Source: Nitzschia sp. pyKryTriq1 (lineage: Eukaryota; Bacillariophyta; Bacillariophyceae; Bacillariales; Bacillariaceae). From it: a DNA stretch of 64,000 nucleotides. Shown in pieces: positions 33,708 through 64,000 of this stretch. The stretch's first letter is position 1. The number at the start of each line of letters is the position of its first letter. The translations under genes were made by a program, and so were the position numbers. The notes under the pieces are model-generated. The model ran no database searches. It was given only the letters and a program-made list of their open reading frames with translations, and had not been told where the DNA came from. The stretch lies in the NCBI GenBank assembly GCA_956465555.1, contig OY101119.1, forward strand, positions 2,900,629-2,964,628, given 5' to 3'.

Positions 33708-35732
33708 ATGGAAGATTGGCTCTTTAATGACGAAGATGATTCGCCACTGTATGGCGATGATCATGAAACGACTACGACTGCTATATTTACCGAGGACACG
33801 CCATACAATAATTCACATCTCGATCACCATAATTTGATGACGCCAGTGTCCGATTACAGCAACGACTACATTGGAGATCATGTGAATGGGGTTTGTAGCG
33901 AGGATCCTGGTGGTTATTTTGGTGAAGAACAAGAAGATTTTTCGGAGACGAGCGCCTCCTCGTACTATGCTCCCTCCTCGCCTTCGACGAACTGTTCCTC
34001 GCTACAAGAAGATCACGATGACGACATTGATGCAATCTTTCCTGAAGATATTTCTCCAACCTCTGCCGATGCTGCCACTTACAATCCCGTCGCTCCGGCG
34101 GATATGGACGCTTTAGTAGCCAAACAAATGGCGGAATTGTCCATGAAAGATCGAGAAAAGGTGTATTTTGATATCCATGGTGTGGCTGACGAAATCCCCG
34201 AAACGCCGGAATTTATTGATAACAAATTGCAGGAATTCGACTACGAATTCAAACAACTAATTTCGCCATCCTCCTCCTCCAATCCTGATTGGGTCAAGGC
34301 CTATGAGTTGGCGCATAGCTTGTCACCCGACTATGTTTCGAATCGCGCCTTTCGATTGAGTTTCTTGCGAGCCGATCTCTTTGATCCAGCCAAAGCGGCC
34401 CAACGATTCGCCCGGCACTGGCAAGCCAAGTTGGAATTGTTTGGGCCCGAAGCCTTGGTCCAAAGTATTACTCAAGACGAACATTTGACGCCCGATTCGA
34501 TAGAAGCTCTGTACAGTGGATTGGCCCAATACTTGCCCCTGCGTGATCGGGCTGGACGATTGGTCGTTGTCTCCTTTTATCACCCTGACCATATTTCGTT
34601 ACATGCCAAGCTACAACGAACCTTTTATATGAGCATGGTCAGTAGCGAAGATGAAGATACCCAGCGTAAAGGGAGGATTGCAATTGGCTACTTGGCCGGA
34701 CAACATGTGGAAGGACGGCCCAGAAATGATTGGCAAATAGCCAAGTTACTGAACGCCTTGCCTGTCCGCATGGAAGCCATTCATTTGTGTCATGACACCA
34801 AGACTATTTGGAGTCCCATTTTTGCCGTCTTTAAGTATGTGGCCACCTTATTCACCCGTCTTCGCATTCGGGAACATTATGGCAGCCATCAAGAATGTTT
34901 GATGAGTTTGCAGACCTTTGGAATTCCCATAAAAAATTGCTTTCCATTGGAGGAAGATAAAAATGGTGGATACGCAGCGGTGTCCAATGTCGAGCATTCG
35001 ATATTTTGGCAAAAGCAACGTAATTTAGAACGATTACGGAAACGCCAGGCTGACTTTCCGGGAGAATCGGTACAAGCATCGTTGCAACAAACCATGTTGG
35101 AAATGGAAGCGGGATCAGAGTCCATGACTTCATCTTCCGCGGTAGCCTCATCTACCGCTACGAGCTTTGCGACCGCTCCTAGTATAAAGCCAGTCGAACA
35201 ACGTCCAGCGACTGCTCAAAACACTAACGACAAAAACAACAACAACAACAAGAGCCAGTCGTCGTCAAAAAAGCAGAAAGAGAAAAAACCAGAAGCCCCA
35301 CTCGATCCCCTCGCAAGTCCTATCTTCACACCTGCACTCCATGATGTCCTTTTGGGCCGCGGCAAGGGCTTTTATCAGCACACTGGCAATATTCGCTTCC
35401 GCCATTTCATTGAAACTCGTTCGCAAGCTTACGATCAAGCCATGACATTATCCGAAAAGAAAACCATTACACAACAAGTTATTGAATTGGTAGAGCAAGA
35501 GGGGGGCCGCTTTTTGAAAGATGACAAGACATGTGGATGGGTACAAGTGACACATGAGGCCGCCCGTCAAAAAGTCGCTCATGTCTTTCGTTCGTTGCGA
35601 GAAAGTACCCCTGATGCAAACGCTGCTGGGATTGCGAGTGGTAGTCGTAAGACTGTATTGGCGAAAACGAAAGGTAGCGGTACGCTGGGCGAGCAGCAGG
35701 GTCCAGTAACCTCAAAAAGAATGAGGCGATAA
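33708..35732 (+). CDS. CRAL-TRIO/Sec14-like + DUF6824 protein 1
   Basis: The 674-residue single-exon protein starts with an acidic, Ser-rich region of about 140 residues. Next comes a CRAL-TRIO N-like helical part (YFDIHGVADEIPETPEF; FRLSFLRADLFDPAKAAQRF, about 214-238), then the Sec14-like lobe (LPLRDRAGRLVVVSF, about 275; PVRMEAIHLCHD, about 350; GSHQECLMSLQTFGIP, about 390-406). A Ser/Gln/Asn/Lys-rich linker leads to DUF6824 at about 546-640 (HDVLLGRGKGFYQHTGN, GGRFLKDDKTCGWVQV, KVAHVFRSLRE). Sec14-type lobes bind phosphoinositides, sterols or similar lipids. A lipid-gated regulator is the simplest reading of the fusion, but it is inference. ATG 33708 is the first in-frame ATG. Confidence 0.85.
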   Translation: MEDWLFNDEDDSPLYGDDHETTTTAIFTEDTPYNNSHLDHHNLMTPVSDYSNDYIGDHVNGVCSEDPGGYFGEEQEDFSETSASSYYAPSSPSTNCSSLQEDHDDDIDAIFPEDISPTSADAATYNPVAPADMDALVAKQMAELSMKDREKVYFDIHGVADEIPETPEFIDNKLQEFDYEFKQLISPSSSSNPDWVKAYELAHSLSPDYVSNRAFRLSFLRADLFDPAKAAQRFARHWQAKLELFGPEALVQSITQDEHLTPDSIEALYSGLAQYLPLRDRAGRLVVVSFYHPDHISLHAKLQRTFYMSMVSSEDEDTQRKGRIAIGYLAGQHVEGRPRNDWQIAKLLNALPVRMEAIHLCHDTKTIWSPIFAVFKYVATLFTRLRIREHYGSHQECLMSLQTFGIPIKNCFPLEEDKNGGYAAVSNVEHSIFWQKQRNLERLRKRQADFPGESVQASLQQTMLEMEAGSESMTSSSAVASSTATSFATAPSIKPVEQRPATAQNTNDKNNNNNKSQSSSKKQKEKKPEAPLDPLASPIFTPALHDVLLGRGKGFYQHTGNIRFRHFIETRSQAYDQAMTLSEKKTITQQVIELVEQEGGRFLKDDKTCGWVQVTHEAARQKVAHVFRSLRESTPDANAAGIASGSRKTVLAKTKGSGTLGEQQGPVTSKRMRR

Positions 35733-36248
35733 TAGAACAGCCGGTGATATTAGAAGTGAGATACAGTACTGGATTTCGATAGTTCTCCTTCAAGAATGCA
35801 ACTTGTATCGGCAGCAATAGAGGGACGTTCTAGTAGTACCGGTACAGCGCGAGCAGCTACTAGCAGCAGTCTACTGCACTCAAAAAAGGGATGGATCGAT
35901 ATATGTATCTACTAGTAGCTAGGAATATTAAAATCGATCATATCATGCGAGTACTCACTTTCTTTGGTCGATGTACACACGCTACTTGTACTGACCGTAC
36001 AAAGCGCTTTGAGTGATAGAAAAACACACCTGCACTTTTTACATGTTCATTACTATTATTTCATTTCATTTCTTCTCACTTCTATCTTTCTTAACCCCGA
36101 TCATGACTTCATATTTTTTTCCAATTCTCACTTTTTGTTGTTCCCACTCGCGTGCAAGCTTGGCCGACTTTCTTACTGATGACTGTACGACGTACTATAC
36201 GACTGACCACGACTCCCTCCATATAGTCAGTACGAGTACTATTTACTT
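35733..36248. other. Convergent 3' spacer
   Basis: Between CRAL-TRIO/DUF6824 gene 1 and the bZIP gene. It has pyrimidine-rich sequence near 36040-36130 and a TACCGGTA near 35839. No gene is seen. Confidence 0.5.
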
Positions 36249-37040
36249 TTACACAGCCCCTTGTTGCGCGGGGGCGGGTTGTCCCGCCGCAGCAGCCACA
36301 GCCATTTGTTGTTGTTGCTGCTGCTGCCAAAAGGCCATCATTTGCTGCTGTTGTTGTTGGGGATTCACCATGCCTGGAGCGGGATTACTGGCATCACCGG
36401 CAGCGGGAGCTCCTGGCATCATGGCTTGCATGGGAACCACGTTGGGGTACTAAAAAATTGGAAAGAAAGTGGGGGAGATATAAGGAATGAACAAGTGAGC
36501 GGAAGCGAATCGATGAATGAATCCATGGATGTATAAAGTACAGTGATGCAGGAAGGGACGAACGAACGAATACCTTCACCGGTACAGCACACAACTTGCA
36601 CATGTTCAAATCCGGTATTCTCATGCATCGCTCAATCCTATCATCGTGCATTCAGTACCAGCACTTACTTTGGTTCCAATTTCAATAAGTTGACCCCTCA
36701 ATTGTTCATTTCTATCATTCAAATCCTTGTTTTCTCTGGACAGAGTAATGACGGTTCGTTGGAGTTCTTCTATCATGGTCTTTTTGCGTTTGCGCGATTC
36801 GCGAGCCGAAATACGATTTTGTTCCAAGCGCTCTTTTCGTTTGCTGGCTTTGGCATCAGATGGACCCGAGCCGGAATCATTGCCATCGCTATTAGCACCA
36901 CCGCCAGCAGCAGCAGCAGCCTCGGCTTCTTCTTGAGCCACCTTGTCTCCGATAGCAGCCATTGCGGCCGCGACCACCTTGTCGGCAGCGGCCTTGTCGT
37001 CGGCTTCCGTGGTGGAAGGAGTCGCGCCTTTGTCAGCCAT
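36249..37040 (-). CDS. bZIP transcription factor, two exons
   Basis: Exons 37040-36669 and 36449-36249 join in phase 0 (donor GTAAGT, acceptor TTTTTTAG) to give 190 residues. The basic region KRKERLEQNRISARESRKRK has the invariant Asn-x7-Arg, followed by heptad leucines (IEELQRTVITLSRENKDL, NEQLRGQLIEIG), so it is a DNA-binding dimerising factor acting in the nucleus. The N terminus is Ala-rich and acidic. The second exon encodes a Met/Pro/Gln-rich tail with two Gln runs, probably an activation domain. The intron sits directly after the zipper. Specific targets are unknown; bZIPs of this class often read CRE- or ACGT-type sites. Confidence 0.92.
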
Positions 37041-37895
37041 CTTATTGCGTCTGGTCTGGTCTGGTCTGGTCTGGTCTGGTCTGGTCTGGTCTGGTCTAGG
37101 TAGTCTATTCGACTGCTACTATCTAGGAGTAACTCGTAGACGAGGAAGGGGGAGAGAGTTGTATTGAGGATGAGGAAGTGTCAATCTTCGCCTTGCGCCA
37201 TCGTCGATCAGTCTTCCATCGCGAACATCGCATTCAAAAGCAAAAGCCGTGCCGGCGTGGCGGCGCTGGATCCAACGCATGGGGACAGAGGGACAGACGG
37301 AATTACGGAAAATTGGTCCGTGGTGAAGGACAGACATTCCTGATATCTCTCGCCACAATACGTGTACAAGTACCGGTAGTACCAGCAGCAGTACTACTAG
37401 TAGATTGAAGATAGGACTACTACCAGGAGGTAGTACTAGTACTAAGAAGAGAGAGACTTCTTCTACCGGTACTAGCTTATATCTCAATTACTAGAGAAGA
37501 GCAGAAGGGAAAAAGTCTGCCCATGCCAGCATGCCGCCAGCTAGTAGATACTCGTCGTACCTGCTGGGGTACTCCTCCTCCTCCTCCTGTACTACGTACT
37601 ACCTTCTTCGAGTACTAGCAGTAGTACTAGCAGTACTACTACTAGAGTAGACTCTCGTCCTCTCTGTTTTTCAATCGTACTAGTAGCAGCAAAAATTGCA
37701 TCCACGTTTGTGTGAGGAGGAGCAGCAATTAGAATGAATGCTGCTGATATTGATAGTAGATAATTTCAAGCTAGAGTGGCTGGTCGTGGTGGAGTATCAT
37801 AATATTAGCGGAATCTAGTATGGGATGATGCTGACAATCATATGCATCATTGCCGCATTTTCCATTTATGCTTGTCTAGTAGTACTAGCTAGTAG
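37041..37895. other. Spacer between bZIP and kinase genes
   Basis: The bZIP gene's upstream region, with a 5-bp microsatellite (37050-37097), followed by TACCGGTA/ACTAGT-rich sequence (37370-37690) and the 3' side of the kinase gene. No gene is supported. Confidence 0.5.
37050..37097. repeat. (CTGGT)n microsatellite in the bZIP 5' region
   Basis: About ten copies of CTGGT begin roughly 10 bp upstream of the bZIP ATG, so they lie within its 5' UTR or promoter. Copy number is likely to vary between strains. Confidence 0.85.
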
Positions 37896-40230: not shown

Positions 40231-41756
40231 ATGAGCCATCCGCCTGTACAAGTAGATCAACAGAGCGTGGAGGCATCGTCGCAGTCCACCACACCCTTGT
40301 CCGCTACAAGTACCGATGATGTCCGGCGGGTGACTCGAATGTTCGCCGAACAAAACCTTCACGACATTCCGGCTTGTAGATTCCAAGAAATGACCTCCAG
40401 TGAACGGGTAGCAGCCTTGCAAGATTTGCATGGGGCATTGGATATTGCGGAGGAGACGCCGGAGTTGATCGAGACCAAGCTGAACGAGCTGGATGCCGCG
40501 TTGGAAGAACTGGAGCCCGAGAAACGAGTGGCCTTGGAAGAGGCGATGCGACGGAACGCCCAATATGTTCAAGGCTTGCGCTTGGCGTTTCTTCGAGCGG
40601 AAGATTTTGATGCGAAGAAAGCAGCGGTCCGCATGACGGGTCATTTTACTACTAGGTTATCCCTGTTTGAGACACCCGAGGTCTTGGGCAGAGATTTACG
40701 TTTTTCGGATTTTAACGACGAACGAGACATGCTTGCTCTCAACACCGGGATAATCCAACTTTTGCCGCATCGGGATCGAGTGGGGCGGCCGGTGATCTTC
40801 ATGAATCCCACAGCGGTAGGGGAAGAACCCTTTCACTTTCCTTCGATGGTAAGATTTTTTCGGAGCGCGATCTGCTACAGTATACTCCGAATACGATGCT
40901 CATATTTTCCTTGATTATTTATTATGTATCCCGGTAGGTGCGAGCTCTCTTTTGGATGACTTGTCTAGCCTCGAAGTTGGGAAAAGATGCCCAGCAAAGG
41001 GGTTTTGTGGGAGTTTGTTACGGCATCGGAGCCAGACAATTCGCTGGCCGTGTTGGACGGGGACCACGATTCGTAGAACTCTTCACCGTGTCGGCAATCA
41101 AAGCAACCTCCATACATGGATGCTTTGACGACCCCCAGATGGTCCAAACATTCAGTGAGATTGCGGCAAATGCTGGGTCACGGCTTGTGGCTCGTTTGCA
41201 ATCTCATCTTGGCAGTCATACGGCATGTCTAGGAAATCTGCGGTCGTTTGGACTTCCGCGGGAAATTCTTCCAATTTCCGCAGAAGGAAAGGTGCATACT
41301 GCCGAAAAACAAAAATTCATCGAGCAGCTACAACGACAGGACTTGGCCATGTCCGATAGTGACGATGGTAATTCGGAGTATGACGAAACGGCAGATGACG
41401 GGGACGCTCCGAGAGAAGAATTGATTGATGCACCAGGCCCAATGGATGTGGTCATGGGCCGCGGTCGTCGTGGCGTGAAATTGCCAGGCAATGTCTTGCT
41501 TCGGCGATTGCAAGAGGAACACTATGACGCCTACAACAGTATGGGTTCCAAAGTTGACAAGACCTGTATTTCCCAGGTAATTCTATCTGGAATGCGGCAG
41601 GCTGGGTGCCGCTTTTTGGTGCCCGTCTACGAAGAAAATGGAAAAATGCATAGGGGTCGACCCGTCCCTAAAGGATGGAGAGAGGTCGACGATGATTCAG
41701 CTCGAGATCGAATTGGGCACGGATTTCGCAATCTGAGACAGGCCAACAAGGGCTAG
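40231..41756 (+). CDS. CRAL-TRIO/Sec14-like + DUF6824 protein 2, two exons
   Basis: Exons 40231-40848 and 40938-41756 (89-nt intron, GTAAGA...CGGTAG, phase 0) give 478 residues. Residues about 38-140 form the CRAL-TRIO N-like helices (ALQDLHGALDIAEETPEL, LRLAFLRAEDFDAKKAAVRM). The Sec14-like lobe follows (LPHRDRVGRPVIFMNP, GVCYGIGARQF, SIHGCFDDPQ, GSHTACLGNLRSFGLP). After a short acidic linker comes DUF6824 at about 373-470 (PMDVVMGRGRRGVKLPGNVL, GCRFLVPV, IGHGFRNLRQANK). The layout and intron position match the gene at 47123. (ACA)n lies directly before the ATG. Probably a cytosolic/nuclear lipid-binding regulator; ligand and target unknown. Confidence 0.88.
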
Positions 41757-42979
41757 CCCACTATAGTGGTATTGTGTTCTTCTTGATGGCTCTTTTCGTA
41801 TTTCTCTTACGCAGAATTGACGATCGGTGTTTTCGGCGATTTTTGCAACCGATGGCTTTCATTTTAGAAGATTCAAGTTAGGTACAGTCAGTCAGTGGAT
41901 ACAACTTGGGCATTGTAACTTAATAAACCGGTACAGCAAGTCCTTCAAGTGCAATACTTATCAACTGCTAATACTCGAAATCTACTGCAGTTTCTGTGCT
42001 GATGTACGGGAGGCATACTGTAGTAGGAACCCTGCATTAGTAGTAGAGTTAGCTGTTACTTGCTACTACTCTTGATTTATGATTGAGCTCTTCGAGCTTC
42101 CGTGGGGAGTGGGGAACAGGAACGCACCAGAACATCATAGCACATACAACAAACATGCAAAAGTGTACTCGTAGTCTAGTGTTCACAAAAAGTGGCTCCC
42201 TGCTGCCCATAGGGGTGGATGGAAGCGTAACGTGTACGGATTGACGTCTGCCCGTTGTACTGAATCCAAGTAGTCAATAGACATTGACAGCATTTTTGCT
42301 GCCATGAAAAAAGACCTGCAGGAAGTCATTGAGAAGTGGGAGGCTAGCGGACGAGTGTGGGCATTGTGCCATGGTCGATCGACGTATATATTTGATGGAT
42401 TTCGTCGTGATCTTGCGCGAGAAAATTCCTCGAGCTCTTGCGAAACGCGAGGTCTGGAGCGCACGTAGATTCTACTGCGTCGGCACCCATAGCAGCCTCT
42501 TGTGTCGCCCCTCTTGAGTCACGGCCATTTGAGTCTTGGGACACGTGTAGGGGCGTCGGGGCGTCCCAATACATTTGTGTATCTTCATATATTATGTCCT
42601 CCCCATTCGATGTGGCCGGCCATCTGTTTGGAAAAATAATGTAGGGATAGAATGCGCCCTGCGGATTTCCGGATTTTCTGCGTATGCGATGATGAGTGAT
42701 CAATGTTTTCGGGTGTGCGCTTCTTCCGTCTTCGTCCGTCAACCCCGCATCACTCGACTAATATTCATTCTCCTCGTTCTCTCTTCGCTAGATGATGATG
42801 ATGATTCATAATTCACCCCCCCCCTTCTCTCGGTCGCCCACCGCATTCCTTCGTTTGGCATCTCCAATATCAATACTGGTACAGTCACAGCTGTCTTCTT
42901 CTTGCACTCTCTTTTCAGAGTAAAAACCGCATGCATGGACGCATTTATTTCGATTGTTTGTGGATCGCGTTGAGAGAAA
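41757..42979. other. Spacer; possible minus-strand remnant near 42.2-42.7 kb
   Basis: Two overlapping minus-strand frames (42183-42464 and 42344-42742) have moderately protein-like composition but only non-ATG starts and no recognisable domain. They could be a degraded gene or mobile-element relic. The right end (42750-42979) is upstream sequence of the ATPase gene. Confidence 0.4.
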
Positions 42980-45900
42980 ATGAAGCTATACTCCAAAGAA
43001 CAATCGTCTGCTGCAAGAGCTTCGTCTGGCGAGCGCGATTTCTTTTCTTTAGCAGAATTGAATCTGGATGACAGCAACAGCAATGATCTAACACTTGATG
43101 AAACAACCTCGGGCGGTGGCTCGCGCTTGGCTCCGTATCCTTCTTCGGAGGGGAGACTGATTGGTAATGCAACATCATCACGGGGAAAAGGAACATCGTC
43201 ACAGGCTCTACAACCAGTTTCCAGCCGAATGACATCTGCAAATCGTCACCATGACCTCCAACAGATCAAGAGCCTTCGGCTTGACACAAATGAGCGGCTG
43301 TTTGGAAGAGACTCTCAAGTGGCAGAACTTGCTGACCGACTTGAAACTGCGCGAATTAACTCGAAAAGAGAACTAGTGTGGGTCTCTGGAGAATCTGGGA
43401 CGGGAAAGACGGCACTTGTGAATTGGCTTAGGAGATCACACATGCCTCGCCAGCAGCACTCCTCGTTCGAAGCCTCCTTGTTCTACTTTTCTGGAAAGTT
43501 TGACTTGCAGCATCAATCGACTCCTTTTGGAGGGTTTGTCGAGGCGTTTGGATCCCCCCTGGCGGCGTTGATTGGTTCGAATCAGGACTTGAGAGACGCT
43601 ATACTACGGGACTTGGAAGAAGATCTAGGAACACTGGTGCGCCTTGCTCCTGGCCTTGGTACCCTACTCCCATCGTCTACTCACGATCAGCCGAACGAAA
43701 ATGAGAAACCAGTTGAAGAAGATAACGAGGAACCAAGAGAAGGAGAAACATCGACACAATCAGAGGAGACTGGCTTTATCCAATCGCTAAATCGTCTCAA
43801 GTACGTCTTCCGTAGGTTTGTGCGCATCCTTGCACGCCTTGGGACGCTGGTCCTAACTTTTGATGACTTGCAATGGGCCGATCATGGCTCCTTGGACTTG
43901 ATTGAAACGTTGTATAGTGATTTTAAAAATACAAGTGGCATTTCAATATTGTGCACTTGTCGCAGAAATGAAATTCAAGTTGACGGTCTCCTCGATCAAC
44001 ATCGACAAGCGATTGTGGAGTACGCGGTCGCTGAAGATGTGGCAGACTTCCATGAGATTCAATTGGGTAACCTTGAAGTGAAAGACATATCCGATCTTGT
44101 TGCTGAGCTTCTCGATACTGATCCGCAAAAGACTTTAGACCTTGCCAATCTACTAAAGAAACGGACCATGGGTAATCCCTACTTTATCATCGAAAGCATT
44201 AGATCCCTCGAGGCCAGTAGGCACATCCACTACAACGTTGGGTTATGCAAATGGACGTGGAAAATTAATGACATTGAACAAAAAATGCCGCTCGCAAACA
44301 ATGTGATTTCACATATGATGGCAAAAGTGAACCAATCAAGAGCCTGTGATGCGTTGCAGATCTTAGCGTGCTTGGGTGCGTCCTTTAGCAAAGGTCTTAT
44401 CACCAAAGTTTCGATGCGCGAAAGGGAAGGCGGCGAGAGCCAAATGCTTGCATGCATGCATGCTAATCCCGATTGGCTGCAGGACTGTATAGACGATGGC
44501 TTTGTCGAGCAGATTGAAATAAGCAATTGCGATTTCTATCGCTTTGTCCATGACAGTGTCCAAGAAGCTGCGTTTCTTTTGATCGAAGGAAATAAAAAGC
44601 GATTCAAATTCAAATTAGGATTGGTTCTCTGGAAGCACTTGAAGCAGGACGAGCTTGACCGTATTCTATACAGCCTTGTCGATCTCCTGAACGACGTTGA
44701 GGTTAGTGCAACACTGGTGGGACTGCTTCCCACAGCGACATTGCTGAGTTCTCTGAATCTTTCTGCTGGTATCAAAGCAAAGAAAGAGGCAGCGCATCAT
44801 ACCGCCTACGACTACATTACCCGCGGAATCAATGCTCTCCCTGAGCTACATTGGGAAGACCATTTCGATTTGAGCATGGAACTCTACAAATCAGCGGCAG
44901 AAACATCACACAGCTGCGGCAAATCAGCGGATACGATGAAGTATTGCGATGCAATTTTGAAGCAACCTAATTGCCCTCTTCTATCGAGAATGTCCATAGA
45001 ATCGATGATCCTCGATATAATGATGGCTAATGGCGAGGCCAGAGGCGCGGTATCGCTTGCCTTGAGTGTTCTTTCCATTGCGGGGTGCAAGTTTCCAAAC
45101 AAGCAAATGGCCCTCCTGCACGTGGGAAAAGAATTCCTCAAAACCAAGAGGATGTTACGTGGAAAGTCCCGTGAAGACTTATTGTCGCTGCCACGGGCAA
45201 CTGATCAAGATACCATACTTATGATGGAGATTCTCAGCAAGCTCGCTCGTAGCTCTTATATGTCACAAGATTTTGGCCTGCTCTTTTTGGCGCAGATTCG
45301 ATTGACACGGTATGTATTGAAATATGGTATTTCTGAATCATCGGCTGTTGCCTTTTGCGGCTACGGTTTCTTCCAAACGGTCGTACTTCAAAATCTGAGA
45401 GAAGGAAGCTTCTACGCTCAATTATCACTTGATTGGCTTCGAAAGCTGAAGTCTCGTGCCATGGCCTCGCAAACTTGCCTAGTGTCGCACCTATTTGTTT
45501 TGCACTGGACGACGCCTACTCCACTGATGCTTAAAGCTTTTCTGAAAGCGTACCAAGTCGGGTTTTCGATGGGAAATACCTTTAATGCTGGTGCACTTCT
45601 TAACCAATACCTCGCATTGGCTCTAAACGTTGGTCGCCCGTTGCCTGCCTTGGTAGAAGACATCCGCGCTGCATGCAAACAGATGCTGGAATACAACCTA
45701 TCGGTGATGCAAATTTCGCTGGTTGTTTACTTGCAGTATGGACTCAATTTAATGGGCAAGTCGGAGGTACCCTACCTGCTGAAGGGGGAGGCCATCGACC
45801 AAGACGCAGTATTCCCAGAAAGTAACAGCGAAAATGGTTTCTTGCAAAAGGTATACATAATTGTCTACCAGCTGCGTCTAACGTACTTTTTTGGACAGTA

Positions 45901-46417
45901 CGATCTTGGCAAGAAACTTATTAAGAAAAGTGAAGAAGCTGATGTTGTCAAGGCTCTCACGAGTCAGTTGCCATTGATTCCAACCGCCGTTTTCTCCGGC
46001 TTGATTTACTACGCCCTGGCACGACGAGATGGTCGCCGCAAATACATCAGAAGAGGCAACCGATTCCTTTCCAAGCTTCAAAAATGGAGAAAGATGGGCT
46101 CTCCAAACTGCGATCACTACCTGTCACTGCTCCGGGCGGAAGTAGCCGACCTTTCGGGCAAGCCGGATGAAGCCAGAAAACTCTACGAGACTTCCATGGC
46201 CATTTCGAGCCGCCAAGGCCTCATTAATGATGGTGCTCTCGTGAACGAGTGTCTGGCTATTTTCTATTTAAGACATGGCGACCAAGAGAACTCAAATTTC
46301 TATATGCGTCGCGGCCATCGCCTCTACACTGAGTGGGGCGCACTTGCCATGTCTCGGCGACTTGAGCAGTTGTACCCGGAGGCATTTTTGCCCGGTGAGG
46401 GGATAGGAACCAAATAA
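42980..46417 (+). CDS. Large STAND-like ATPase with TPR-like C-terminal region
   Basis: The 1145-residue single-exon protein has a disordered N terminus, then a nucleotide-binding domain: LFGRDSQVAEL (entry motif), WVSGESGTGKTALV (Walker A, residues 137-144) and RLGTLVLTFDDLQWADHGSL (Walker B near 288-300), ending at GNPYFIIESIRSLE. This matches the AAA_16/ORC-like ATPase found next to adenylyl cyclases, kinases and transcription factors in STAND signalling proteins. From about residue 560 onward there are helical repeats (SMELYKSAAETSHSCGKSAD, LLRAEVADLSGKPDEARKLY) typical of a TPR-like scaffold. No catalytic output domain is present. Likely a switch or scaffold that responds to ligand through ATP binding. 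Confidence 0.82.
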   Translation: MKLYSKEQSSAARASSGERDFFSLAELNLDDSNSNDLTLDETTSGGGSRLAPYPSSEGRLIGNATSSRGKGTSSQALQPVSSRMTSANRHHDLQQIKSLRLDTNERLFGRDSQVAELADRLETARINSKRELVWVSGESGTGKTALVNWLRRSHMPRQQHSSFEASLFYFSGKFDLQHQSTPFGGFVEAFGSPLAALIGSNQDLRDAILRDLEEDLGTLVRLAPGLGTLLPSSTHDQPNENEKPVEEDNEEPREGETSTQSEETGFIQSLNRLKYVFRRFVRILARLGTLVLTFDDLQWADHGSLDLIETLYSDFKNTSGISILCTCRRNEIQVDGLLDQHRQAIVEYAVAEDVADFHEIQLGNLEVKDISDLVAELLDTDPQKTLDLANLLKKRTMGNPYFIIESIRSLEASRHIHYNVGLCKWTWKINDIEQKMPLANNVISHMMAKVNQSRACDALQILACLGASFSKGLITKVSMREREGGESQMLACMHANPDWLQDCIDDGFVEQIEISNCDFYRFVHDSVQEAAFLLIEGNKKRFKFKLGLVLWKHLKQDELDRILYSLVDLLNDVEVSATLVGLLPTATLLSSLNLSAGIKAKKEAAHHTAYDYITRGINALPELHWEDHFDLSMELYKSAAETSHSCGKSADTMKYCDAILKQPNCPLLSRMSIESMILDIMMANGEARGAVSLALSVLSIAGCKFPNKQMALLHVGKEFLKTKRMLRGKSREDLLSLPRATDQDTILMMEILSKLARSSYMSQDFGLLFLAQIRLTRYVLKYGISESSAVAFCGYGFFQTVVLQNLREGSFYAQLSLDWLRKLKSRAMASQTCLVSHLFVLHWTTPTPLMLKAFLKAYQVGFSMGNTFNAGALLNQYLALALNVGRPLPALVEDIRAACKQMLEYNLSVMQISLVVYLQYGLNLMGKSEVPYLLKGEAIDQDAVFPESNSENGFLQKVYIIVYQLRLTYFFGQYDLGKKLIKKSEEADVVKALTSQLPLIPTAVFSGLIYYALARRDGRRKYIRRGNRFLSKLQKWRKMGSPNCDHYLSLLRAEVADLSGKPDEARKLYETSMAISSRQGLINDGALVNECLAIFYLRHGDQENSNFYMRRGHRLYTEWGALAMSRRLEQLYPEAFLPGEGIGTK

Positions 46418-47122: not shown

Positions 47123-48734
47123 ATGATGGAGGAAGAAGTTCCGATGGTATCCGAATCGTCAAGTTTTCAAGCCAACGATGATGATTCTTCTTCAGGCGTA
47201 AAATCTGTGACTAGCCTGTTTGCACAGACAAACATTCACACGGTTCCTTCTTTTCGGCTCCACGAGACATCGCCCGAAGAACGAACGGAGGCCCTTCAAG
47301 ATTTACATGGAGCCTCTGATGTGATAGAAGAGTCACCCGAGTTTGTTCGAGAGAAGCTAGTGGCGCTGGATCTGGAATTGTTCTTATTTGACAACATGGA
47401 GACGCGAGAGGCTTGCGATGAGGCGGTATGCCAGAACGAAGGATATGTGCGAAATTTGAGACTAGCTTTTCTGAGAGCGGAGAAATTCAACGTTGCCAAG
47501 GCGGCCCGTCGTATGATGGCACACTTCACGAAGAGGCGGGAATTGTTTCAAGACCCGGAGCTTCTAGGGCGTGATATCCGACTTTCTGACCTCCAGAACA
47601 ACGAAAGCGATGTTCAAGGGTTGAGAACCGGAAAATTCCAACTCTTGACACACTGCGACCGTGCTGGAAGGCCTATAATGTTCCTCTATCCAGCCGCAGG
47701 TGCATCGAAAGCAGTCCATCCTGTGGATTCCTGGGTGAGTAAATGCATGCGAGCGTATAAAAATTCCAGCCAAATCCTCGCATTCATGGTTATTAGGCCG
47801 AGCAGCTCATCCATATTCAAATTTTTTGTTCTCTCTCCGGTGCACGCCTTTGACGTATTCTTGTAAAAAGGAGCGCATCGTTATGTGGCTCAGTATTCTA
47901 GCAGCAAATTCGGGGGAAGAGGTTGAAAAGAAAGGGTTTGTGGTGATCTGGTATGGCCTTGGAATGCCATATGGTCCTGCGCATACATATTACGGACCCA
48001 GATGTTTTGAATCATTGCAGATTATGCCCATTGGTTTGAGATCGGTCCATATTTGTTTCGACAATCCTGGTTTCACCGAGGTTATGGAAGAAATTGCCAG
48101 AGAATCGAATTCCAAAAGTGTCTTTCGAATGCGCTCCCATTGCGGGGGTCATATCGAATGCCAGACAAGCTTGGCGACATACGGAATACCACGTCTCATC
48201 CTACCAGTCCAACCCAACGGCTCCATCAAACTACAGGAACATGAACGATTCCTAAATCGAATCATCGAGGACCAAAATCGGCAGCAACGACTACTGGATC
48301 CTTCCGACAATAGCGAGAACATGTCCGACACGTCATCACTAGCACAATCGGTACCAGAAATCAAGAACGAAGAAAGGACTCCTCGGCTAGTGGCCTCCCC
48401 TGGTCCCATGGATGTGATTTTAGGTCGAGGCCAAAGAGGATACAAGTCACCTGGTAATGTCTTGCTCCGACGACTTCTCCAGGAAAACTACGAAGAATAC
48501 AACGCTTGTTCGAGAGCACAGAAACCGGTCATTTCCCAACGGATTTACCGACGCATGAAGGAAGAAGGATGTCGATTTCTGGCGCCGCATGAAAATGGCG
48601 AGAACGAGAAAGCAATTGTCAAAACGTCGGTGGATCGTTCCTATTGTCCCGAAGCGTGGGCTGAAGTGGACGAGAAAGCGGCCCGAGATCGAATTTCCCA
48701 TGGTTTTCGGAACATGCGGCATACTAAAAACTAG
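47123..48734 (+). CDS. CRAL-TRIO/Sec14-like + DUF6824 protein 3, two exons
   Basis: Exons 47123-47734 and 47871-48734 (136-nt intron, GTGAGT...AAAAAG, phase 0) give 491 residues. The order mirrors protein 2: ALQDLHGASDVIEESPEF and LRLAFLRAEKFNVAKAARRM helices; LLTHCDRAGRPIMFLYP; then in exon 2 VVIWYGLGMPYG, SVHICFDNPGF and ECQTSLATYGIP; finally DUF6824 at about 382-485 (PMDVILGRGQRGYKSPGNVL, EEGCRFLAPHENGENEK, ISHGFRNMRHTKN). The intron interrupts the same point of the Sec14-like lobe as in gene 2, so the two share a recent intron-bearing ancestor. Function as for gene 2. Confidence 0.88.
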
Positions 48735-48980: not shown

Positions 48981-50702
48981 CTATAAAGTATTGCCGTTGT
49001 TGTTGATTTCTTCGGGTTGCTTTTCTTCTCCATTCCCGGAACAACTCGCGTCGTCTTCAACCACGCCATCCATTCGTATCCGAAAGGATCGCGACAGTGG
49101 CAAAGAAGGACATTCTTCCAGATGAGCAATGTTCTCGTCTTCCGGATAAGGTTCCTTGGCTTCTTCCACATTCACTATTGAATGAATTGTTCTTGTATCG
49201 TCTATTTGTGTGTTTTCTTGACTGTGATCATCCTTTTCGGCATACGCCAGCTCTTGAGGCATGGCAAGACTGCTTGCTTCTTCTTCGTCTTCTTCCACTA
49301 CCGGAAGAGTCGTAGAAAAGCCAGCACTAGGAGAACTCGTGGACCGTCCGGAGGAAGACAACACATGTTGAGCACAGGCGTTGTAGTATTCTTCCGGATG
49401 TTGTGGAAAGTACGAGACACCACCAGAGCCGGTACCATTGCAAGCAGCAGAGGATGAAGTATGCTCAAAGTCAGCATCGTCCTCGACGGTTCGTTGGTCG
49501 ATTTTACGTGTAATGTCCGCTAGCCGCGGAATCTCCGTGTCAAAGCACGCCCTTCGAAGAGCTGCCCATGCAGAGAGCTCCGGGTCAGCGGCACGAATCC
49601 GACGGTAGTTGGGACGGTTGTAGACTAACATGTTGAAGAATCCTTGAAGGGGCAAGCACATGGATTGCACCAACAGGAGTGGAAAGACCTTGGAGTCATC
49701 TACGTCTTCCACCAAGTGTTCCACTAATCGAAGTGCCACGGCAGACCAGTAGGAGAAGAAGAACGTACCAACGTAAAGGAAGCCTTGAGTGGCAACTTCC
49801 TTGATTTGCGCTTTGCGTACATCGTCTGCCAAGGCTTGTTTGGCTCTTTCGTGTTGTTGACTGGCAGCACCCGCCGCTCCAAAAGAAGTGGAACCAGTTT
49901 GGGGTGATCCTTCACCCCTGCTATCATTTCGCCGAAGGCTTATTCGAACGTAGCGATAAATAACAATGTTGTTGATCAACAGCGAGCCGAATGCAAATGC
50001 CAAAGGGAGTACGCCAAAGACATACCCCCAAATGTGAGCCGTGCACTCATCGCCCTCACAGTTCTCGGGATAATTTGTAGTCCAGCAGCCAAACCCCACT
50101 TCGAGCTCATGAAAGACACCAAAGGCTGCTCCGATCGAAGCCGTTACCAAGGGAAATAAAATGGCGCAACCGTGCATCCATCGTTCGTAGCGCGCCATCT
50201 TGTGGCGTTTCACACCAAACCGCACCGTCAGGAGATAGTAGTAACTCAAGACGCCGTTGTAGAGCAAGGCGGCAAAGCTCAACTGCGTTAAAAAGCCAAG
50301 AAAGGCGCAAGTCGCATAGTTTCCAATGGCCCATACTCGCTTCGAAGTCCCGGCGGGTAGTAAAAAGGGCCACATGGCATATGTAAAGCTCGCTATTATA
50401 TCCGACGAGCTCAAGCCGAGCATCAGTCGATCATACGGTGAAGCCTTGGATCGATTGCAGAGCACCTTGATCACTATTGTGGAACTCCCTACGATAGAAA
50501 ATCCCGCCGAAATCACAAATAATATCGACAGCAGCATTTCCTGAGCGTCCGATAGAGTCGACGGGTACATGGTGCTGTGCACATTGGAGGAAGAGTCGCC
50601 GATGTGGTTGTCCAGGCCCGCTATTGAATGGTTCCTTGGATACGATTGGCTCGTCTCCTCATCGTACAGCCCAGTGGCGCCTATTGAGGTCCATTCTGCC
50701 AT
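48981..50702 (-). CDS. Seven-transmembrane receptor (class A-like)
   Basis: The 573-residue protein has an extracellular N terminus with NxS sites and seven hydrophobic segments: LLSILFVISAGFSIVGSSTI, RLMLGLSSSDIIASFTYAMW, CAFLGFLTQLSFAALLYNGV, MHGCAILFPLVTASIGAAFG, YVFGVLPLAFAFGSLLINNI, GFLYVGTFFFSYWSAVALRL and LLVQSMCLPLQGFFNMLVYN. TM7 ends with NMLVYNRP, similar to the NPxxY motif. The layout is that of rhodopsin-like/cAMP-receptor-like diatom GPCRs. The C-terminal 230 or so residues are a disordered, acidic, Ser-rich cytoplasmic tail that could be phosphorylated. The ligand is unknown. Single exon; ATG 50702. Confidence 0.85.
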   Translation of the reverse strand: MAEWTSIGATGLYDEETSQSYPRNHSIAGLDNHIGDSSSNVHSTMYPSTLSDAQEMLLSILFVISAGFSIVGSSTIVIKVLCNRSKASPYDRLMLGLSSSDIIASFTYAMWPFLLPAGTSKRVWAIGNYATCAFLGFLTQLSFAALLYNGVLSYYYLLTVRFGVKRHKMARYERWMHGCAILFPLVTASIGAAFGVFHELEVGFGCWTTNYPENCEGDECTAHIWGYVFGVLPLAFAFGSLLINNIVIYRYVRISLRRNDSRGEGSPQTGSTSFGAAGAASQQHERAKQALADDVRKAQIKEVATQGFLYVGTFFFSYWSAVALRLVEHLVEDVDDSKVFPLLLVQSMCLPLQGFFNMLVYNRPNYRRIRAADPELSAWAALRRACFDTEIPRLADITRKIDQRTVEDDADFEHTSSSAACNGTGSGGVSYFPQHPEEYYNACAQHVLSSSGRSTSSPSAGFSTTLPVVEEDEEEASSLAMPQELAYAEKDDHSQENTQIDDTRTIHSIVNVEEAKEPYPEDENIAHLEECPSLPLSRSFRIRMDGVVEDDASCSGNGEEKQPEEINNNGNTL

Positions 50703-54203: not shown

Positions 54204-54669
54204 TGATTTTGGAAAAGACGAGAAGCAAGAAGGGACGATGCATCATGGAGTGAAGCCGGCATCACCAGCATCCATGATCGATGCGAGAGAGATCATCACG
54301 ATGCTCTTGTTCGCATCTTGAATCTTGACCTCGTCCACTGATTGTGATGACATCAAGCAATCGGCGTCAAAAAGTGCTGGTGCGTAACCGTTACTACTGC
54401 GTTGCAGCGCTTCCACCTATTGCTTGCCTACCAGCCTAAGATTTTTCTAATCGTGCGAGTCGAAGGCGAAGCCCAAAATAAAATAATGACCGCATGGATC
54501 TCAGATCCCTTATTGTCTTGTGTTATTGGCAGTAGTACCGGTAATGTACATAGTTGGCATCCACCTAATACATACAACAAAGAATCATAACCACAACGCA
54601 GTCATCGTACCGGTACATTGGATCGGTGGGCATGGCCCCGTTCCATTTTACAGTTCTACTAGCAGCAAG
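54204..54669. other. Upstream region of the LCAT-like gene
   Basis: Contains TACCGGTA cores near 54537 and 54608, between the divergent small gene and the acyltransferase. An open frame runs upstream of the chosen ATG through these motifs; I treat it as 5' UTR. Confidence 0.5.
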
Positions 54670-56834
54670 ATGTTTTCCTTTTTGTCACGGACATCTGATG
54701 ATACCAAGGATGTTGAAAAAGCCGCCTCCGCCAGGAGGCTTCCGATTTTAATCATTCCAGGTTTCATGAGTTCGGGCCTGCGAATAGAAGAGTCCTTCGA
54801 AAAGCCGAATTGGAAGGGTAAACGGCTGTGGCTCAACATTGGCAGTTTGGGCGTGGGCAAATTGTCTAGTAGGGCACGGAGACCGTGGGAAGCCTTTCAT
54901 CGAGCAGTGAGTGACGTTGGGAGTGATATTGGCGTCGAGCGGGATGGAGTCTCCTTTCCAATATCTGGCGACGAGGCCGATCAACAGCAACAGGCAACCA
55001 TTCGGTCATTGTGGCTACGACACATGATGCTCGACGACGATTGCACATCGGAGCGACCCGGCGTCCGAGTGAGAGCGATCTCAGGATTGGATGGCGTCAA
55101 TTACTTGTATCCTTCTTTTCTGACCAACATGATCACCTACGTCTTCGGTCCATTGATTGACTTTTTGGTTCAAGAAGGGGGATATACGGCCGAAAAAGAT
55201 CTCCAAGCAGCTCCATGGGATTGGCGGATTCCTCCTTGCGAAATGGAAGCTCGAGATCAGTATTTTACCAAAACCATACAACAAATCGAGGACATGTATC
55301 AAGCTTGTGGAGGTCAAACCCCGGTTGTACTCTTGGGGCATTCTTTGGGATGCAATGTTGCCCACTATTTATTAAACTTTGCCTTGAAAGAAAAAGGGCA
55401 AGCCTGGATCGATCAGCATATACATACGTACATGCCAGTCAGTGGGACTCATCAGGGGGTGCCAAAATCGATCAAACAGGCTGTATTGGTGGATCATTCC
55501 TGTTTGGATCCCTTCTTGACCTTTGAAGAAGAAGTTCAGTTTAGTCGGAGCCTCGGGAGTACGGCTTGGATGTTTCCAACCCAACTGCCATCCGAAAGCC
55601 CACCAATTGCGTGGGTGAAACAGCAAGCAATACTTGAAATTCGAATCACTCAGCCCATTGAGGTTCAGCAGGCACTACTGAAGAATCGCCGCCCTAGCGA
55701 CCGTCCCCAAGAATATCAACTGCAGGTTGTTCTTGGCAATCCAAACAAGAAATCTAGTATCCGACTCTTATCCACACGCTTTTTGGAAGACAATATTGAG
55801 GCCAAGGCCGATTTTGCAGCCGAAACGTTTTGTTTTGTACTGCCCTCAAAAGTGGACTCTCCCCAAGCGTTGGATGCGGAACACTGGAATCTGCAGTTTT
55901 ATCTTCGAGAACCTGGCTGGACTCAATCGGGGAAGGATCGAATTACACAAGAGGGGGCAGTGTTGGCGAAAGCCTTCTCATGTTTTGAATGGATCAATCG
56001 AATACTGGGTGTTCTTTTTGAATTGGTCTGTTGTGTGTATGATATCGCCATCTTTCCAATCAAAGTTATCAATCAAATGACTGTGGAGGTCTCAGCCGTA
56101 TTGGCCGTTTCAGAGCCGCTTCCTCTCCAAGGACTCCACCCCCAAACAAGTCGGAACGAGATTCTGGAGCTGATCCATGTCCACGACTCGCATGGAAGCT
56201 GTTTTCTTACTCCTCACGAGAAACGACAAACCGAACTGCACGTCCATGTCGCTTGGAAACCCTATGACGCATCCCTGCTGCCCACGGAACAACTCTGCTC
56301 CAACGTGGCATCACCTCACCCTGATCACAACTACTTTCAAGTAGTCGATACTCTCTCCGGTGAAACATTTCAAGCCTTATCTGGACATGACTTCATGTAC
56401 AAGGAAGGTCCCAAAACCCAATCCTGTCTCAAAACCATTCACGATTCGTACGACAATGATCCATTCGGCCCACGTACAACGAGTTCTTTGGGGGCACCAC
56501 CGGTCAAGCGAGTGCACGCAATTCATGGAATCAATATCCCTACCGAAGTCGGTGCCTTTTATCGACGTGCCGATGCCTGTCTTTCAACCAAACAATCCTT
56601 ACCCACCTATCAACTCGACCCGAGCCCCCAAATCAACCTGACGACGAACAGAAAGAACAGTACGCTTGGGGATCGATACAAGGTCGATGGCTATTTATTG
56701 AAAGAAGTCCCCACACCCGATCATCCTACTGGAGATGGAACCGTTCCGTATTGGAGTTTGGCCTGCGTCCAGAATTGGAAGGGTTCGGTAGAAAGCTTGA
56801 CCGTAGTAGAGCTAGACCAAGCGGAACATCGAGA
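54670..56834 (+). CDS. LCAT/PDAT-like acyltransferase or lipase, interrupted by the assembly gap
   Basis: About 721 residues are readable before the N run. The fold of lecithin:cholesterol acyltransferase and PDAT is clear: LPILIIPGFMSSGL, WLNIGSLGVG, DGVNYLYPSFLTNMI, LQAAPWDWRIPPCEME, VVLLGHSLGCNVAH (Ser225), the Asp in GDGTVPYWSL (Asp689) and EHR (His720). Asp-His spacing is 31 as in human LCAT, but Ser-Asp spacing is about 464 rather than about 164, so about 300 residues are inserted in the cap. The enzymes transfer or hydrolyse acyl groups on phospholipids; PDAT makes triacylglycerol. A hydrophobic stretch (ILGVLFELVCCVYDIAIFPI) lies in the insert. The end lies in or beyond the gap. ATG 54670 was preferred to 54544, which lies in GTAC spacer. 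Confidence 0.85.
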
Positions 56835-57234: not shown

Positions 57235-57378
57235 GACGACGACAGCTCCTCCTCTCCCGACTATACGATATCGATCCACAACAATCCACAACTAGTCCGT
57301 AGAAGTAGTACCATCAATGATGTGACTATTCGAACTTTTAAACTACTACCACCAGTCATTTTATTAATAAAAGGCTGA

Positions 57379-60918: not shown

Positions 60919-61003
60919 CGTCCATGGAAATCAGCCTGTGCAGTTTTCAAACGGGACGGGGTTGGCTCCGAATCATCAAAGCCGCGCGACTCAGCCATGA
61001 CCG

Positions 61004-61011
61004 TGACGTCA
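61004..61011. promoter_or_regulatory. CRE-type site TGACGTCA
   Basis: The perfect 8-bp CRE palindrome lies about 90 bp after the triple palindrome and about 30 bp before TATAAATG (61040). CRE/ACGT sites are bound by bZIP proteins, and diatom CO2/cAMP-responsive promoters use TGACGT cores. Which gene this would control is unclear; the nearest annotated gene starts 600 bp downstream. Confidence 0.45.
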
Positions 61012-61411
61012 GCTGCCGGGAGCTCGAACATGATGCACGTATAAATGGCCCGGGCTTGACGGCTCAACGTCAGCAATTGGCACGCATAAGAATGGCTTTG
61101 CAGGCGCGAAAACCGTTACTTTTTATGTGTGTTCTTCAAAAAGCCGACAGGATAGAACATCAACACGACAGATGGCTATTGAGTCGATTGGGTCGATCGC
61201 GCAGTCACGTGTATTTACCCCACGTTGCTGTACTTGTGCAGTACCGGTACAAGTAACGGTACCGGTACTCGTACCAGGTACAGTTAGTACCGGTATGTAT
61301 GTTTCATATATAATAATTAGCGTGGGAAGGATCCAGTCCAGTCAGTCAATGATAATAGTCGAATTTGTCAATTTAGTCGCATTCAAAACGGTAACATTCC
61401 TCTCAAAATTC

Positions 61412-61440
61412 CTCTCTCTCTCTCTCTCTCTCTCCCTCTC
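61412..61440. repeat. CT microsatellite
   Basis: A run of CT dinucleotides, with a second CT run near 61460-61476, 130-190 bp upstream of the alpha/beta hydrolase-like ATG. Polypyrimidine tracts of this kind are common in the window's spacers. Confidence 0.8.
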
Positions 61441-61602
61441 GTGAGGTAATTGTACCGATACTCTCTCTCTCTCTCTGATGCTCAGCATTCAATGATGATC
61501 AATCAATGATTTCCCAACTACAGTCAGCTCGTACTGATGACTAAACTACAGTAAAAGCAATGTGGAAGGGAAGTACTAGCTGGTACTGGTAGTGCTCCTC
61601 GC

Positions 61603-63099
61603 ATGGTGCAGGTTCATAGGAGCTCAAGCAGACTTCCATGTCCTCATCGATCTTGCTTGGATATTTCATGTTTGGTCCTGGTCAAGAAGCAAGTATATAT
61701 AGTAGGGCAGCTCCTCTTCTCATGTCTGATGCTGTTGGGCCTCCTCTCCTGGTGTTGGATGATAATATTGCTGATGTCGATGAATAATAACACGGTGGAT
61801 TCTATGGCGGCGAGCATGATGAATAAGAATCAACTTGATCATTTGAATCCATCAAAGTCCCCACTTCTTGGAGAAATCGTACCGACCACGGATAATTTTA
61901 GTCGCAGGGCAGCAGCACAACCTATCTATGGAATCCGCCGTTTGATTCCAGTGCCGTCAAACAATTTCAAGAACTTGGATCTAGGAGCGTCATCATCATC
62001 ATCGCAGCAGCAGCAGCAGCAGCCGGTGGAAGTCGTGTACTCAAGGATGCATGATTCTCCAAAAGGAATCGCATTGCTGCTTCATGCTTGCACCCATAAT
62101 GCTCTCAAATTCTTCTCGCCCAGTCCCTCCACATGTCGTCAATGCGTGGGGTTGGCGGAAGAACTTCGGATCGTTCGTTTAGTGCAAGAAAGAGGCTATG
62201 TACCAGTGGCAGTGACATGTGTTGACTCCGAGAGTGGGTGCTGGTCGGATCGAGATCTCCCACGGCTGCAGCAAGTCTTGAGGACGTTTCAAGAGGAGCT
62301 ACGACCGTCAAATACTACTACTAAAAATAGCACCACGATACTCCTCCCTCCTCGAGCTGAAATGCGTTTACCTGTCATTGCAATCGGAGCGAGCTCGGGG
62401 GGACATATGGCGGCCAAGGTCGCTGCCGAGGGTTTGGCGGATGCCGCCCTCGTCATGGTAATGGGCTTGAAACCAGCATTGCAAGAGCAACTTGTAAAAC
62501 AACAGCCTCCCTTGTACTTGGCGCCCATGCCTCGGGATCAAAGGACTTTGAAGCGAAATCGAGAAAACTACCAGGCTCTTGTCGCAGCAAATTACAACGC
62601 TGCTGGAGATGATCATGAATCAACAACAATCAAGAAGAATGATTTATCTGTTACTACCAGCAGCAGCTCGTCCTCCATCCTCTCTGATCGAGTCATTTTG
62701 GACGAGAAATCGTGTGTGCCATGCCCCGTAACGGTCGACTATTTAGTGGAGCGTGTTCCTGGAATCACACGAGACCATGCCGCACGAATCATCCTGGCTT
62801 TGCAAAATAGCGGGCATTTGGGTAGTGAGGACCAGTTGTTTCGAAAAGACCCTACGGTATCGGACTGGCGCAACGCGCTACTTGCTCTCAATCCAACACC
62901 AGATTCACAACTTCAATCTCAAAATCAACAAGAAGGAGCTAGGGGACATCCTACCGACGAGATTCTATGGGGAAAATTTCCTCTCACACGAGGCCAATCT
63001 CCATTGGCGAAAGCCTTCCACAGGGCTTGGGCCTTCCACGAGTATTGCTCCGAGTCTGTGCCACTTGCTCTTGACTTCTTTGAGCGCTTCCTTCTGTAA
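61603..63099 (+). CDS. Membrane-anchored alpha/beta hydrolase-like protein
   Basis: The 498-residue protein has an N-terminal hydrophobic segment (GQLLFSCLMLLGLLSWCWMI, about residues 36-55). The lumenal/soluble part has IALLLHACTHNALKFFSPSP, CRQCVGLAEELRIVRLVQER, and VIAIGASSGGHMAAKVAAEG, a nucleophile elbow of the GxSxG type (Ser264) of alpha/beta hydrolases. A Gln run and Ser runs occur before and after. A catalytic Asp and His cannot be fixed with confidence. The family reads as conserved in algae but without assigned function. ATG 61603; single exon. Its stop is 97 bp from the stop of the convergent CRAL-TRIO/DUF6824 gene 4. Confidence 0.7.
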   Translation: MVQVHRSSSRLPCPHRSCLDISCLVLVKKQVYIVGQLLFSCLMLLGLLSWCWMIILLMSMNNNTVDSMAASMMNKNQLDHLNPSKSPLLGEIVPTTDNFSRRAAAQPIYGIRRLIPVPSNNFKNLDLGASSSSSQQQQQQPVEVVYSRMHDSPKGIALLLHACTHNALKFFSPSPSTCRQCVGLAEELRIVRLVQERGYVPVAVTCVDSESGCWSDRDLPRLQQVLRTFQEELRPSNTTTKNSTTILLPPRAEMRLPVIAIGASSGGHMAAKVAAEGLADAALVMVMGLKPALQEQLVKQQPPLYLAPMPRDQRTLKRNRENYQALVAANYNAAGDDHESTTIKKNDLSVTTSSSSSSILSDRVILDEKSCVPCPVTVDYLVERVPGITRDHAARIILALQNSGHLGSEDQLFRKDPTVSDWRNALLALNPTPDSQLQSQNQQEGARGHPTDEILWGKFPLTRGQSPLAKAFHRAWAFHEYCSESVPLALDFFERFLL

Positions 63100-63196
63100 C
63101 ATTGTCGGCATTTGCGGACAGTACCATCACCAGCAGGAGAATATCCAGTCGAAGGAAGAATTCACGATGGATTCGGTGTCGAGGCGAACGTACCAC

Positions 63197-64000
63197 TTAC
63201 TTCGTAGTACCACTGGAATTGCTTTCACGCAAATTTCGAAAGGCATGCGAAATCTTCTGTCGCACTCTCTCCTCGGACACCTCGACCCACCCCCCAGAAG
63301 GATCTCCAGATGCTTTGATGAATCGGCAACCTCTCTCCTTCAGAAGTTTGGATACGTGGTCAGCCACCAATATCTTTTCGTAGTTGGTGGCACTTTCGTA
63401 CTTGGGACTGTATTTTAAAAGCAGCTGCTTGTACAGTCGGTTGCCTTCCGATTTCTGGCCCCGTCGACCCCGTCCCATGATTACATCCATCGGCGAAGGC
63501 GTGATTGCCTCCCCAGCAGCAGTTGCAGCTGGAGCTACTGACGAAGAAACACTGGAAGACGCTGGTGAGGGCATTGAAGCCACTGCACTGCTGCTACTGG
63601 GCCTTGTTCGTTGCTGACCCAAGGACTGAAACCATTTATACAAATGTGTGGTATTGATGACGCCGTCATCTGACAAGGGAAATGTGTTTTTGTCGATAGG
63701 TATACCAAACGTTCGAAGGCGATCCTGGCATTCGGCATGGGTCCCAGAATGAGTGCGAAATCTCACGAGGCATTCCGAGGTCATACTATGGCTAGCAATG
63801 TCGAAGAGTCTCGCCAGCGACGGATTGTCGTAACAGGCATGGGCACCTTCAATTCTGATCGGCAGAGAGGAGCATATATCCAAGCATCTGTCAGGCTGTT
63901 CCTGAGAAAACTTTTTCTGCCCAATCCCATAGTAGATCAGCACGACACCAGTCTTTTGTATACCCTCATCCTTTGCCACCAAAGTGGTACCGACAAAGAA
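63197..64000 (-). CDS. CRAL-TRIO/Sec14-like + DUF6824 protein 4, 5'-truncated by window edge
   Basis: The frame is open to the right edge, so the N terminus is missing. Visible: the second half of the Sec14-like lobe (GVVLIYYGIGQKKFS, RIEGAHACYDNPSLARLF, GTHAECQDRLRTFGIP), a Ser/Ala/Pro-rich linker, and a complete DUF6824 (PSPMDVIMGRGRRGQKSEGN, LLKERGCRFIKASGDPSGGW, VRQKISHAFRNLRESNSSG). The layout matches the genes at 33.7, 40.2 and 47.1 kb; DUF6824 here is closest to genes 2 and 3 (MDVIMGRGRRG). It is on the opposite strand from the others. Confidence 0.85.
   Translation of the reverse strand, partial: FFVGTTLVAKDEGIQKTGVVLIYYGIGQKKFSQEQPDRCLDICSSLPIRIEGAHACYDNPSLARLFDIASHSMTSECLVRFRTHSGTHAECQDRLRTFGIPIDKNTFPLSDDGVINTTHLYKWFQSLGQQRTRPSSSSAVASMPSPASSSVSSSVAPAATAAGEAITPSPMDVIMGRGRRGQKSEGNRLYKQLLLKYSPKYESATNYEKILVADHVSKLLKERGCRFIKASGDPSGGWVEVSEERVRQKISHAFRNLRESNSSGTTK

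Follow-up and report, generated by a model that had tools for sequence, protein, structure and literature searches.

Does the fusion of a Sec14-type lipid module to DUF6824, a domain without a described function, create lipid-responsive gene regulators in a diatom? The question is raised by a 64,000-nucleotide stretch of the Nitzschia sp. pyKryTriq1 genome (the window; contig OY101119.1, C5:2900629-2964628), where an earlier note made from the sequence had reported four genes (genes 1 to 4 here) sharing a CRAL-TRIO half, hereafter the lipid half, which is followed by a linker that varies and by DUF6824 at the C-terminus. This layout is present in all four, as are the GRG(K/R/Q) and FRxLR/FRNMR motifs ascribed to DUF6824. 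The genome of 40.65 Mb, in 20 contigs, has eight matches to the silicon-transporter family (best 6.9e-266) and is therefore that of a diatom. Gene 1, ordered as an acidic N-terminus, the CRAL-TRIO half, a long linker, DUF6824 and a basic tail, is intronless. Genes 2, 3 and 4 have one predicted GT-AG intron each, called from the sequence only, and its common alignment position within the lipid half supports the gene models. None of the four has a signal-peptide-like N-terminus as judged by eye. The gene reported at 63197 is real and the start of its lipid half is indeed cut off by the window; position 63197 is its stop-codon end, on the minus strand.

The architecture is not restricted to the window. 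A search of the genome with two of the lipid halves gave 101 and 131 matching stretches that were merged into 89 lipid-half loci, and a search for DUF6824 gave 237 first-look candidates, of which 150 were scored, all above the cut-off. Going by the 150 matches listed, at least 58 of the 89 loci are followed on their own strand by a DUF6824 no more than 2.5 kb away. The gap does not exceed 1 kb in 55 of them; C6:343800, with a gap of 2.1 kb, is a doubtful pair. If these 150 matches were placed at random, simple arithmetic gives about 0.4 paired loci among the 89. The DNA was read for DUF6824 at 44 loci (40 plus the four window genes), the other 45 being covered by the 150 listed matches only. 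The domain is carried by 31 of the 40 non-window loci that were read, nine of them beyond the listed pairs, and gene 2 adds one more. This brings the loci with a downstream DUF6824 to about 68 of 89, with nine read and found without it and 12 neither listed nor read. The idea of a family is thus stronger than first stated, with about 68 such genes genome-wide instead of four. We know of no earlier description of a Sec14-type module combined with DUF6824.

One continuous open frame spans the C-lobe of the lipid half and DUF6824 across 22 distinct linkers, those of the four window genes among them, and the proteins are therefore true fusions; the alternative of adjacent separate genes was rejected on these same frames. 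The linkers are 30-123 residues long. Many start with a helix-like basic motif close to HLxWIxxRRxxE (a loose pattern, drawn post hoc, fits 15 of the 22), which may form the final helix of the lipid module or serve to couple the two halves.

As judged from profile scores, the lipid half is a divergent CRAL-TRIO module, nearer to the retinaldehyde-binding protein CRALBP and the alpha-tocopherol transfer protein (alpha-TTP). A profile of the four spliced lipid halves matched these two proteins in the PDB (5.7e-11 and 3.1e-7, respectively) with alignments of ~190-230 positions lying within profile positions 100-335; the match to yeast Sec14 is weak (0.23). The Sec14-like lobe claimed for the window genes is therefore well supported. 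The likeness to the CRAL-TRIO/Sec14 superfamily (CRALBP, alpha-TTP, Sec14p; PF00650/PF03765) resides in this match, whereas the diatom halves have conserved residues of their own, H98-G99 and R326-x-H328-x-G330 (profile numbering), and carry the fused DUF6824. In Pfam, CRAL_TRIO_N was found in genes 2, 3 and 4 (13.8, 15.4 and 16.6 bits; cut-off 23) and CRAL_TRIO in gene 2 (19.2 bits; cut-off 22.6); the lipid half of gene 1 had no match. Two fused relatives, C6:2517793 and C6:2520468, pass the PF00650 cut-off (26.9 and 25.6 bits) when scored by reading through the stops of probable introns. The genome has 46 canonical PF00650 matches; five of these overlap the 89 lipid-half loci, two of the five being fused.

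The two halves diverged together and form a stable unit. Their pairwise distances correlate across 35 genes (r=0.578), a value reached by none of 2000 label permutations (maximum 0.215), in a mirror test that corrects for phylogeny by this permutation only. In six of nine hand-chosen close pairs dN/dS is 0.10-0.41 in both halves, as computed for the longest lipid-half piece and with several dS values above 1; the other three pairs were saturated. Both halves thus look constrained in the six measurable pairs. Four unrelated chance similarities were rejected as an explanation by the profile E-values, the co-divergence and the constraint. In two close pairs dS of the longest lipid-half piece is far below that of DUF6824 (L016/L017, 0.14 vs 0.31; L041/L046, 0.16 vs 0.89), a pattern suggestive of gene conversion confined to the lipid half.

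In a tree of 44 DUF6824 domains, eight stand-alone copies separate from the 35 fused ones with support 74, and seven of the eight group at 99; these eight are the best Pfam scorers, a biased sample, and none of them is closer than 187 kb to one of the 89 loci. Support is 99 for the pair of genes 2 and 3 and 93 for its grouping with gene 4, with gene 1 outside this group at a weakly supported position (57). The fifth DUF6824 copy that had been reported at 19694 without a lipid part is confirmed (Pfam 5.6e-7, 30.4 bits; no lipid-half match nearby), and because its domain groups with genes 2-4 (support 64) this gene may have lost its lipid half. The four copies within 31 kb exceed chance: no other stretch of that length among the 89 loci has four, and one of 1000 random placements reached that number. 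A neighbour within 31 kb is found for 52 of the 89 loci against a random mean of 11.4, in placements that ignore contig limits and gene density. A pure tandem array was rejected, as gene 1 falls outside the group of genes 2-4 and unrelated genes lie in between. Two C3 loci among the 89 resemble two on C1, as if copied by duplication of a block. Three different families have matches of equal or almost equal score at both C1 ~4.23-4.64 Mb and C3 ~3.09-3.50 Mb, which points either to a large duplication close to the ends of two contigs or to an artefact of assembly.

The second half of the fusions is DUF6824 (PF20710). The four fused genes score 56.7-82.1 bits (E-values 4.1e-23, 3.4e-15, 4.3e-17 and 4.4e-18 for genes 1 to 4) and, like the gene at 19694, exceed the cut-off of 27 bits. 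All 35 scanned copies match the family, with which they have in common the GRG, GN, RFL, W and FR motifs. For the most part, fused copies have a GRGK-type loop and an FRxLR end where stand-alone copies have a GRGG-type loop and a QALRE end. To form the 35-copy alignment, L006, L035:2445 and L047:3696 were dropped from 38 distinct near-complete domains, the length filter having passed 41 of 54 matches. The description of the domain as short and basic fits most copies: net charge is positive in 29 of the 35 (median +4, median pI 9.4), and at four positions 34 or 35 of them have K or R. Relatives were found neither in viral contigs nor in GTDB genome contigs, a weak form of absence evidence as the search used two short peptide patterns.

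A confident AlphaFold2 model of the gene 1 domain, computed with the five window copies as alignment (pLDDT 85.9, pTM 0.74), has a strand at residues 7-9, helices at 13-16, 19-37 and 41-57, strands at 62-66 and 70-73, and a helix at 76-93. The predicted order beta-alpha-alpha-beta-beta-alpha is also found in winged-helix domains that end in a C-terminal helix and in type I KH domains, although two of the helices look long for either. A PDB sequence search with DUF6824 returned nothing (best 0.28), and Par3_HAL_N_term was matched by three of the 35 copies (best 0.013). The element order shared with type I KH domains, together with the mostly basic composition, would also suit an RNA-binding DUF6824 and fusions acting as lipid-responsive post-transcriptional regulators. 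This we regard as improbable: none of the 35 copies matches a KH family in Pfam, and the KH GxxG motif lies between the first and second core helix, where alignment and model have no conserved counterpart (a run of glycines occupies this site in the 19694 copy). The conserved glycine loops of DUF6824, GRG and HxGN, sit instead between the first strand and the first long helix.

The stand-alone DUF6824 proteins offer a view of the domain without the lipid half. The eight scanned have no other domain above the Pfam cut-off. In counts made without a control set, Q, N, S, P and G make up 26-46% of their residues outside the domain, in flanks of low complexity; K[KR]x[KR] occurs outside the domain in six of the eight frames, in one of them (L002) ahead of the first ATG, and in the linker or tail of 18 of 25 fused frames, duplicates included. 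Some stand-alone members thus look nuclear by composition and motifs. We consider that DUF6824 is most likely a nuclear nucleic-acid-binding domain; binding to DNA fits the data and is unproven. To our knowledge HSF is the largest known transcription-factor family of diatoms, and first-look candidates number 237 for DUF6824 vs 213 for HSF. By eye, one long open frame (L050:3-4037; C6:2425800-2431000) has at least three DUF6824 copies, set between low-complexity, basic stretches such as KKRKAAK.

The reading that we prefer, with a confidence that stays somewhat short of even, is that the fusions make up a large family of nuclear regulators that respond to lipids in the manner of the plant HD-START factors. 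By extension from the superfamily, the CRAL-TRIO module would hold a lipophilic ligand, or sense one at a membrane. The ligand state would shift the localisation, stability or dimerisation of the fusion protein and thereby change the output of DUF6824, much as START domains do in HD-ZIP IV factors, and duplication, often local, has produced some 70 versions of the fusion. In the plant HD-ZIP IV factors ATML1 and PDF2, the START domains have ceramides as ligands and regulate both turnover and dimer level (PMC10126025). The proposed logic is alike in that a lipid-binding domain is fused to a regulator whose turnover and dimer level the ligand alters. It differs in that START and the homeodomain are unrelated to the diatom domains and in that DNA and lipid binding are established for the plant factors and not for the diatom fusions. 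For the latter we infer lipid binding, DNA binding and gating, and the regulator idea of the earlier note is plausible but unproven.

Several observations weigh against lipid-gated nuclear regulators. The pairing of the two halves is not obligatory, since at least nine loci have no downstream DUF6824 (L010, L011, L012, L015, L032, L033, L036, L038 and L040, of which L015, L038 and L040 are overlapped by canonical CRAL-TRIO matches), and only 18 of 35 genes have the same nearest neighbour for both halves. The Pfam check of each half had a divided outcome, with DUF6824 above its cut-off and the lipid half below those of PF00650 and PF03765 in all four window genes; this is a detection limit of the Pfam model and not a structural criterion. 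The Sec14 module of Kalirin shows that such modules in multidomain proteins may be closed and weakly bind lysolipids in a surface groove (PMC9823006). A lipid half that has lost lipid binding and instead gives a DUF6824 nuclear factor its scaffold for dimerisation or protein binding would agree with the closed pocket reported for Kalirin, with the strong divergence from PF00650 (one of the four window copies matched, below the cut-off) and with the mean distance of 0.69 between paralogues. It agrees less well with the signs of purifying selection in close pairs and with an alignment to the ligand binders CRALBP and alpha-TTP that runs through the core, and we hold it to be quite unlikely.

Other adverse points concern DUF6824. 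Six of the 35 copies, all six fused, have a net charge of 0 or -1. No DNA- or RNA-binding family of Pfam or ncbifam recurs among the 35, which gave single weak matches only, such as zf-H2C2 in one copy (0.064), and the weak Sigma70_r4 match of gene 4 (0.0073, below cut-off) was seen in none of the 35 isolated domains. The view of DUF6824 as a mostly basic domain in nuclear-looking proteins has indirect support, and no known DNA-binding family recurs among its copies by sequence. The non-basic copies and the missing family matches would also suit membrane-signalling adaptors without any direct part in transcription, in which the CRAL-TRIO half docks on phosphoinositide-bearing membranes and DUF6824 is a protein-interaction domain; in plants, multidomain SEC14 proteins are said to guide membrane recognition (PMC7674337). 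The nuclear-looking composition of the stand-alone proteins (no control) and the conserved basic positions of DUF6824 speak against adaptors, which we judge unlikely. Kalirin, a RhoGEF, and the plant SEC14 proteins with GOLD resemble the diatom fusions in having a Sec14 module followed by other domains, but there the module is joined to spectrin repeats and catalytic domains, or to GOLD, and not to DUF6824.

The coordinates of the window genes and their parts are given in Table 1.

Table 1. Genes with DUF6824 in the window and their parts (positions are those of the window unless indicated)
Feature	Position	Strand	Basis or remark
Gene 1 CDS, 674 aa, single exon	33708..35732	+	Sequence and Pfam scan
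Gene 1 CRAL-TRIO/Sec14-type half, conserved core	34140..34958	+	Profile match spans 33849-34958
Gene 1 DUF6824	35328..35594	+	Pfam; structure model spans 35328-35624
Gene 2 exon 1, N-terminal part of lipid half	40231..40848	+	Predicted splicing
Gene 2 exon 2, lipid half C-lobe, linker and DUF6824	40938..41756	+	Predicted splicing, Pfam
Gene 2 DUF6824	41433..41732	+	Pfam
Gene 3 exon 1, N-terminal part of lipid half	47123..47734	+	Predicted splicing
Gene 3 exon 2, C-lobe, linker and DUF6824	47871..48734	+	Predicted splicing, Pfam
Gene 3 DUF6824, insert ahead of conserved W	48399..48713	+	Pfam, alignment
Gene 4 exon 2, C-lobe, linker and DUF6824	63197..64000	-	Exon start 12 bases past window end
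Gene 4 exon 1, remaining lipid half	2814..2104 in L009, beyond window end		Flanking genome sequence
Gene 4 DUF6824	63233..63502	-	Pfam
Stand-alone DUF6824 gene, 330 aa	19694..20686	+	Domain at 19751-20113

A bZIP transcription factor (1.5e-13) adjoins gene 1 at 36621-37115 on the minus strand. The protein encoded at 31732-32928, also on the minus strand, has a long Ser/Glu-rich repeat and no match to a Pfam family at E 0.01. The plus strand between genes 2 and 3 (42974-46417) encodes a 1147-aa protein with an AAA_16 ATPase domain (8.8e-25), perhaps STAND-like. Gene 3 is adjoined by a seven-transmembrane receptor-like protein at 48981-50702 on the minus strand (7tm_1, 0.00046, below cut-off). 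An LCAT-type lipid acyltransferase (1.3e-40) is encoded at 54520-56800 on the plus strand, with a stretch of N just downstream (~56.83-57.24 kb).

The expansion may be partly known. Where it deals with clade-signature genes, the genome paper of the benthic diatom Seminavis robusta counts 40 CRAL-TRIO superfamily genes and proposes that phospholipid metabolism may differ (PMC7335047). These many CRAL-TRIO genes may be the same family; the main text of that paper does not contain the string DUF. Neither the name DUF6824 nor the accession PF20710 turned up when the full text of 5.39 million open papers was searched, and no precedent for a Sec14 module fused to a transcription factor was evident in the portions of text that the literature search covered. 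Diatom annotation databases may already list the architecture.

Diatoms are major primary producers of the ocean and makers of lipids. About 70 fusions in one genome, with a second half that has no described function, would constitute a large unstudied regulatory layer. A more far-reaching reading, which we find rather doubtful, is that DUF6824 is an unrecognised transcription-factor domain of diatoms, of which some 70 members in this genome would be lipid-gated through a Sec14-type ligand module; nuclear receptors or HD-START factors would then have their diatom counterpart in this repertoire. If DUF6824 does bind DNA, it would define a transcription-factor family of the size of HSF in this genome.

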